DNA of 64,000 nt. It comes from Deltaproteobacteria bacterium RIFCSPHIGHO2_02_FULL_44_16 (GTDB lineage Bacteria > UBA10199 > 2-02-FULL-44-16). This document shows positions 53,510 to 55,373 of the stretch, piece after piece. The position numbers and the translations under genes were made by a program. The stretch lies in contig MGRM01000009.1 in the NCBI GenBank assembly GCA_001798185.1, positions 1-64,000 on the forward strand, in the 5' to 3' direction. How positions within the stretch are numbered: the first letter of the stretch is position 1; every line of letters begins with the position of its first letter. The notes under the pieces are model-generated. The model did not search any database. It saw nothing but the letters and a program-made list of their open reading frames with translations, and had not been told where the DNA came from.

Positions 53510-54316
53510 ATGATGAGATTCCTTTTCGTTTCCACTTTACCCTCAGGAGACCGCGTCCCCACGCATACCACGGTCTTTGTGACGTTAACGCTCATTGCGC
53601 TGTTTCAATTGGTCATCTCCCTGGTCACCAAACATTTTTTTGCCCTCGGAATTCTCGTGAACGAAATCATCATTATTGCCGGTCTCCCTTTTCTCGTTGC
53701 ACGACTTCTTCGAACTCGATCCCAACTTCTTTTCCCTTTTCACGCTCCTTCCTTTCGATCAATTTTCTTCTCCCTCCTTTTTATGTTGGGAGTTGTCATC
53801 GTGATCGACTATCTCGTGTTCATCAGCGAAATCTTTTTTCCTCTCCCTCTCAGCTATCGAGAAGCTTTAGAACGAGCACTTGAAACATCATCGTCCGTTG
53901 AAGTCGTATGGAAATTTTTTCTTCTCTGTCTTGTTCCTGGCGTCTGTGAAGAAATTTTCTTCCGAGGCTTTTGCCAAACAACCTTTCAATTTCAGCTCAA
54001 CAAAAAAATCGCCCTTTTTCTGACTGCGTTTCTTTTTGCCCTCCTTCACGGCAATCTCTGGTATGTTCATCTCTACTTTCTTTTGGGCCTCGCCCTTTCA
54101 TGGGTTTTTTCAATAACCAAAACGTTATGGGTCCCAATATGCTGTCACATCTTTAATAATAGCTGGACGTTTTTACATGCGACGTGGAAGACAACCCTCC
54201 CGCTACGCTCAACGATGAATGTCTCTGATATTCTTCTCTTTGCATTCGGAATGCTTCTTCTTATAATTTCAACACGCATTCTGAACAGCGATAAAAAGAA
54301 AGGTGTACCTATATGA
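53510..54316 (+). CDS. CPBP-family intramembrane metalloprotease-like protein
   Basis: A 268-residue polytopic protein with about seven membrane segments. It has the CPBP (Abi/Rce1-type) motifs: paired glutamates plus arginine in VCEEIFFRGF (around residue 146), FALLHGNLW and ICCHIFNNSW. Family members cleave near membranes, and some are linked to C-terminal protein sorting (myxosortase) or bacteriocin immunity; the target here is unknown. No good ribosome site precedes the ATG pair at 53510/53513. It overlaps ldcA by 4 bp (ATGA), so it is the first gene of a recycling/envelope operon. Confidence 0.82.
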   Translation: MMRFLFVSTLPSGDRVPTHTTVFVTLTLIALFQLVISLVTKHFFALGILVNEIIIIAGLPFLVARLLRTRSQLLFPFHAPSFRSIFFSLLFMLGVVIVIDYLVFISEIFFPLPLSYREALERALETSSSVEVVWKFFLLCLVPGVCEEIFFRGFCQTTFQFQLNKKIALFLTAFLFALLHGNLWYVHLYFLLGLALSWVFSITKTLWVPICCHIFNNSWTFLHATWKTTLPLRSTMNVSDILLFAFGMLLLIISTRILNSDKKKGVPI

Positions 54317-55224
54317 AAAGGGCACAGCCCTTGAAAAAGGGAGATACCATTGGGATTGCAGCCGTAAGTGGCACTTTTGAACGCGATGCTTTTGAAAAAG
54401 GAATTACGGTTCTCGAATCGCTTGGGTTCAAAACTTTTTTTCATGAAAGCATTTTTAAAAAAGAGCGGTATCTCGCGGGAAGTGATCAACGTCGCTCGCA
54501 AGAACTCGTATCCCTTTTCGAAAATCCAGAAATCAAGGCAATCATGTTTGTCCGCGGTGGTTATGGGGCCATGCGGATTCTTCCGATTCTTGACACAAAG
54601 CTCATTGCAGCGAATCCAAAACTGGTGATTGGATATTCAGATCTCACACCACTCCTTGCGTGGTTATCTCAAAATTTCGGTTATCCTGTAGCTTATGGAC
54701 CGATGGTCCTTGGACTTGGAAAAGGAGTTCCAGAACTCACCCTTGAACACCTGGTTCGTGCTCTCACATCAGAAAAAGCACTTGGGATACTTCCTGGAGG
54801 AAACGCAAAAACACTCAAAGAAGGAGAAGCCAAAGGGAAACTTCGTGGAGGATGTCTCGTGATGATCAATGCAAGTCTTCGAACACCATATGAAGTGAAT
54901 ACAGATGATGCGATTCTCTTTTTTGAAGATATCAATGAATGGGTTCCTCAACTTGATCGACTGCTCACGCAACTGAAACACGCAGGGAAACTCAAAAAAG
55001 TTCGAGGCATTGTGATTGGAACTCTTGTGTTGCGAAGTGACGATACTCACGATGTTGTTGCGATGCTTCAAGATGTCTTCTCCGATTTTCAAGGTCCGGT
55101 TATTTTCAATTACCCTGCGGGACACGATACTGCATTTGTCACTCTCCCTCTTGGAGTTGATGCAGCACTGATCGCTTCCGAAACATCGTGCTCATTGACC
55201 ATCACGTCAGGTCTCTTTGAATGA
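54313..55224 (+). CDS. ldcA: Muramoyltetrapeptide LD-carboxypeptidase (S66)
   Basis: Cytoplasmic serine peptidase removing the terminal D-Ala from recycled murein tetrapeptides. The 303-residue protein has MFVRGGYGAMRIL, the nucleophile Ser109 in VIGYSDLTPLL, Glu205 in LFFEDINEW and His271 in YPAGHDTAFVTLPLG, the S66 Ser-Glu-His triad. Its stop codon lies inside the left arm of the 157-bp palindrome. With mpl downstream it forms a coherent recycling pathway. Confidence 0.93.
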   Translation: MKRAQPLKKGDTIGIAAVSGTFERDAFEKGITVLESLGFKTFFHESIFKKERYLAGSDQRRSQELVSLFENPEIKAIMFVRGGYGAMRILPILDTKLIAANPKLVIGYSDLTPLLAWLSQNFGYPVAYGPMVLGLGKGVPELTLEHLVRALTSEKALGILPGGNAKTLKEGEAKGKLRGGCLVMINASLRTPYEVNTDDAILFFEDINEWVPQLDRLLTQLKHAGKLKKVRGIVIGTLVLRSDDTHDVVAMLQDVFSDFQGPVIFNYPAGHDTAFVTLPLGVDAALIASETSCSLTITSGLFE

Positions 55225-55373
55225 GACGCGATTTCAAAATGGACAAATTACACGGGTGGCGCCGACGTTGGATCCCAGGGGCGCCCCACCCACGGTTTAT
55301 GGGTGGGGAGGTGGAACGACGGAGGCGACAGGACCCGTGACCACAAAACGTTTTGAAATCGCGTCTCATTCAA
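55217..55373. repeat. 157-bp palindrome at the ldcA/beta-lactamase junction
   Basis: Positions 55217-55239 and 55351-55373 are perfect 23-bp inverted repeats. Inside them the sequence continues as an imperfect GC-rich stem: CACGGGT against ACCCGTG, and CCCACCC against GGGTGGG around a short loop near 55295. The whole can fold as one long hairpin. It covers the ldcA stop codon and the N-terminal codons of the next gene. It looks like an inserted MITE-like unit or an inverted duplication, and its RNA form could limit read-through. Confidence 0.85.

Follow-up and report, generated by a model that had tools for sequence, protein, structure and literature searches.

Palindromic repeats that lie in frame within genes are best known from Rickettsia. 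The Rickettsia palindromic elements (RPEs; Ogata et al. 2000), in the summary given by PMC10969869, are palindromic, ~150 bp long, non-autonomous and in frame. MITEs such as Coxiella QMITE1, ERIC and Correia are short, dispersed elements with terminal inverted repeats and no internal gene, and REP/BIME sequences with RAYT (Y1) are multi-copy palindromic units. Perfect inverted repeats are also made or mended by inverse copying of one arm, as described for replication template switching, which is reported to create, maintain and mend hairpin stems (PMC8794818). In the mitochondria of Nematomorpha, perfect coding palindromes are tolerated inside coding sequence (PMC6649704).

The window analysed here, a stretch of 64,000 nucleotides, contains a palindrome at positions 55217-55373 of the forward strand that is a copy of a dispersed repeat and not a feature of the ldcA/beta-lactamase-fold gene junction in which it lies. 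We describe this repeat as a previously undescribed, hairpin-forming and putatively mobile element that occurs between genes or in frame inside ordinary genes. By analogy, RPEs are the closest known kind, as both are palindromic repeats of ~100-150 bp with many dispersed copies, non-autonomous and in frame inside unrelated protein genes. The present element differs in that it resides in another bacterial class, has outer arms that are both site-specific and complementary, and is translated in several frames and both orientations. Kinship with RPEs was sought at the peptide level, where eight element peptides matched neither Pfam nor NCBIfam models at E <= 1. The element shares the general features of MITEs but has no parent transposon that we found and no consistent direct target duplication, and its arms extend into the host flank. 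Compared with REP/BIME units it is much longer and lies in frame inside genes, and the hairpins of PMC8794818 and PMC6649704, unlike the present element, are isolated and lack a repeated mobile core.

The palindrome at the ldcA junction

The two arms of the window copy (55217-55239 and 55351-55373) are 23 nt each and 100% complementary, with a spacer of 111 nt that forms a GC-rich imperfect stem. For 55217-55373 the RNA folding energy is -88.6 kcal/mol, whereas shuffled sequences average -48.5 (z = -10.7) and none of them is as low; the perfect arms and imperfect stem described in the sequence-only reading are thus real. The conserved part of the element covers 55231-55359, and in this copy site-specific sequence is confined to the outer ~14 nt of each arm. 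In the left arm these nucleotides (55217-55230) hold the ldcA stop codon, TGA 55222-55224, and are followed by the conserved terminal repeat ATTTCAAAA. The right arm begins with the conserved TTTTGAAAT and ends with 14 site-specific nucleotides that are an exact inverted copy of those on the left. Between the arms lie two conserved core motifs on the same strand, CGGGTGG at 55253-55259 and GGCGACAGGACCCG at 55324-55337, the latter found class-wide.

Upstream, the ldcA-like LD-carboxypeptidase gene (54313-55224, forward strand) encodes Peptidase_S66 N- and C-terminal domains, and its homology to LdcA extends to residue 298 of 303, nearly the C-terminus. The beta-lactamase-fold gene (PF00144; 55337-56440, forward strand) probably starts within the element, at GTG 55337. 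Read in the frame of TTG 55217, its ORF is open through the whole element; the Pfam match starts at about codon 57, and the first homologous residues follow directly on the right arm. The right arm encodes the residues ..FEIASHS, in agreement with the earlier proposal that it codes for part of the N-terminus. A 39-codon ORF (55221-55340, forward strand) starts at an ATG that overlaps the ldcA stop and ends at TGA 55338-55340, which overlaps GTG 55337. This GTG is in frame with the beta-lactamase-fold gene and base-paired in the stem of the predicted fold. Translational coupling through the element, from the short ORF to GTG 55337, is possible.

When the junction was compared with that of relatives, a check that the sequence-only reading had suggested, a Desulfobacteraceae relative (L039) was found to carry ldcA and the same downstream gene overlapping as TGATG, with no dyad. 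This supports the reading of the palindrome as an inserted element and places the insertion just after the native start, so that ATG 55221 is probably the original start of the beta-lactamase-fold gene, from which the insertion probably separated it. Of the two gene ends previously thought to have been reset, the downstream start was therefore probably reset, whereas a reset of the ldcA end is not supported, given homology almost to its last residue. The extent of LdcA homology, together with beta-lactamase homology that begins only after the right arm, points to a native left arm, of which the right arm looks like an inverted copy.

A repeat family in the source genome and its class

A search of the source genome with the 157-bp palindrome returned 33 matches, nearly all within its bases 15-143, and these bases recur in at least 28 copies (BLAST, same genome). 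A covariance model (R1), built from an alignment of 28 copies (A1), recovered about 65 distinct copies of a roughly 145-bp unit in this ~2-Mb genome, on most contigs and in both orientations. The search for further copies, also proposed in the earlier reading, thereby settles what the element is. The copies in A1 fall into two main subfamilies that have the ends CGGGTG and CAGGACCCG in common but unlike middle parts, and CGGGTG...CAGGACCCG can be taken as the core motif of the element. The terminal repeat ATTTCAAAAC / GTTTTGAAAT is kept in most copies of the source genome, and a subfamily has the arms AGACCTCTTTCGAAAC in common. The core covaries as well (43 versus 10.7 after shuffling).

The wider comparison covered 46 genomes of the class, to which all sampled genomes of the phylum belong, and the relatives examined are from outside the source genus. 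The core motif GNNGRCAGGACCCG is present in 26 of these 46 genomes, with 55 occurrences in the source genome and 18, 15, 14, 14, 12 and 10 in others; reversed-pattern controls were mostly zero. With R1, three or more copies were recovered in G002, a member of the source family, and nine further genomes of the class gave weaker matches. In G006 (L081; G006:C9:117772-117943), a palindrome of another kind, with perfect arms of 31 bp, has the terminal sequence AGAATTCGTTTCAAAAC in common but not the core; it is perhaps a separate element with shared ends.

Database searches gave no related family. The window and 15 loci produced nothing above the gathering threshold in Rfam and no family at the element, and phage and plasmid collections contained no similar DNA. 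The 19-nt family B motif was absent from viral contigs, in which a 15-nt left motif gave many unspecific matches and was dropped. A hammerhead-like motif, CUGAUGA, in some left loops was rejected on inspection, there being no three-way junction.

No long element with the same ends was seen in the source genome (29 contigs). The only half copy (L115; G000:C7:31443-33577) was considered as an autonomous copy and rejected, as inspection revealed no recognised transposase ORF within 1 kb. Here the right half of the element adjoins other palindromic repeats, CCTGCGAAAGCAGGGATCCAG... and TCATTGCGAGCCCGAAGGGC..., which resemble repeats widespread in other bacteria. Judged by its counts per genome, a Y1 transposase seems an unlikely driver; it occurs in 38 of the 46 genomes, not in proportion to copy number (G040 has 14 motif matches and no Y1). 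Neither the Y1 survey of the 46 genomes nor the L115 neighbourhood yielded a mobilising enzyme. A possible direct target duplication, TCGAT, was seen at livF only; other loci carry inverted, not direct, repeats.

In-frame copies inside conserved genes

In the source genome, at least 11 copies interrupt conserved genes in frame and are flanked on either side by homologous protein sequence. The genes hit are mnmE, feoB, rarA, mutY, livF, pyrD, metH, mutL, miaA, yggS and a methyltransferase-like ORF. Names were assigned from alignments and Pfam matches; those that we take to be mutL, mutY and the methyltransferase were assigned partly by general resemblance to these families. The methyltransferase-like ORF holds two copies of different subfamilies, ~30 bp apart and both in frame (L008 and L100; G000:C4:29542-29866). 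Three other copies (L010, L016, L023) are open in frame ahead of signal peptides. As empty-site comparisons, pyrD and yggS were set aside, since their orthologues vary too much in length.

Two further in-frame copies were observed in G002. One (L080; G002:C188:5513-5656) lies between amidohydrolase-like and outer-membrane-protein-like parts of a single 878-codon ORF; two genes may have been fused here across the element. The other (L070) occupies nearly the same mutY linker as a source-genome copy (L021), in the same orientation and in a different genus. A single ancestral insertion was considered for this mutY pair and dropped, since the cores belong to different subfamilies and the positions lie 2 codons apart; the pair possibly represents parallel insertion, or replacement.

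Site-specific arms and their native side

The outer arms differ from copy to copy, yet the left and right arms of each copy are complementary. Flank pairing beyond the terminal repeat summed to 189 for the copies' own pairs, against 97 for the best of 20,000 permutations. Across 19 arm pairs on A1 we counted 103 double-sided changes versus 29.8 after shuffling, and none of 500 shuffles was as high. With at most one mismatch allowed, arms have a median length of 19 nt and reach at least 14 nt in 82% of copies versus 4% of chimeric controls. The genomes G006, G007 and G018 carry perfect arms of 25-34 bp that have no visible common sequence from one copy to the next, although their cores remain alike. 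At a fixed distance on both sides of the element there is a preferred motif, ARAA-NNN-ATTTC, with TTYT as its mirror.

Orthologous proteins were used to tell native from copied arms. In the purL copy of G019 (L076), the left arm encodes FGATIDF, which corresponds to a G-[AV]-x-[IVM] segment of the orthologues. The right arm is the inverse of the left at 19 of 22 nt, occupies the position of a variable loop at about native length and has no counterpart in the orthologues examined. This purL thus has one native arm, from which the other was copied in inverse. A different insertion, TTAANRLALPAVSRGVWGETSSETVVPP, is present at nearly the same place in purL of G023 (L194). In miaA, the net insert is 36 amino acids relative to eight orthologues and the arms are of native length; the left arm keeps an LADFFR-like helix, and the right, copied arm has lost a conserved Gly. 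The native side varies among loci, being element-left in the window copy and element-right in purL and miaA. At livF, the insert measures 48 amino acids (144 bp) against a 70%-identical G002 orthologue, which implies that the arms arrived there with the element as extra DNA. For the metH, mnmE and rarA copies, length and residues would allow either arm to be native, or both.

Origin of the arms

Our preferred explanation, held with moderate confidence, is a selfish, non-autonomous palindromic element whose hairpin promotes template switching that overwrites one flank with the inverse of the other. The ~145-bp core would fold into a strong bulged hairpin, and copies would persist between genes, directly behind stop codons or, within proteins, at positions that tolerate an in-frame insert. 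Once inserted, the hairpin would place its two flanks side by side, and a replicating polymerase could switch template at the hairpin base and write one flank inverted over the other. Such copying would make and maintain perfect site-specific arms, often with no net change in length. In the window, the element would have landed behind the original start of the beta-lactamase-fold gene, for which GTG 55337 is probably the present start codon. That the element moves, that template switching shapes its flanks and that its hosts could dispense with it are what we infer from these comparisons. The livF arms, having travelled with the element, count against a simple template-switch reading, as do the subfamily with AGACCTCTTTCGAAAC arms in common, metH and mnmE, which fit insertion into an existing palindrome, and the ~110-nt spacer, which exceeds the loops usually studied for template switching.

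It is possible, but we consider it unlikely, that the arms instead arise during dedicated transposition, in which the 3' end of the element folds back and extends on the target strand (snap-back synthesis) to leave an inverted target duplication. Site-specific arms in every genome examined, the ARAA-NNN-ATTTC / TTYT motif at fixed distance on both sides and the 25-34 bp arms of G006, G007 and G018 would all be consistent with such chemistry. In purL and miaA, however, the copied arm replaces native sequence and adds none; the varying native side and the livF arms that came with the element also speak against it. We know of no described element for which writing an inverted flank at insertion is an outcome of transposition, and a literature search on 'inverted target site duplication' found nothing relevant.

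Transposition targeted to hairpins, into the centre of pre-existing palindromes, would leave both arms native, as the metH, mnmE and rarA copies allow. Such targets are too rare for this to be anything but improbable: the window holds three spacerless palindromes with a half-length of at least 8 and none at 10, and many copies need 10-30. The inverse arm of purL, absent from the orthologues examined, argues in the same direction.

Nor do we find it at all probable that a once-identical terminal repeat has drifted while selection for an RNA or DNA hairpin preserved its pairing. Compensatory change in the inner arms and core and the arm sequence common within subfamilies would be expected under such drift, but the arms of G006, G007 and G018 are unrelated between copies with similar cores, and one purL arm encodes conserved host residues. 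Finally, although GTG 55337 is paired in the predicted fold and shares bases with the TGA that ends the short ORF upstream, a local regulatory hairpin that controls translation from this codon, as the sequence-only reading had proposed, is almost certainly not the explanation, since the element recurs at about 64 further, unrelated sites, L039 has both genes without it, and a family of ~65 dispersed, generic copies does not need a role in hiding the start.

Implications

A class-wide family outside the Rickettsia lineage shows independently how selfish DNA can contribute protein segments to core enzymes. Its site-specific arms provide dozens of natural replicates for the origin of long perfect palindromes, in which the point at issue is whether the arms come from hairpin template switching, as we favour, or from a new insertion chemistry.
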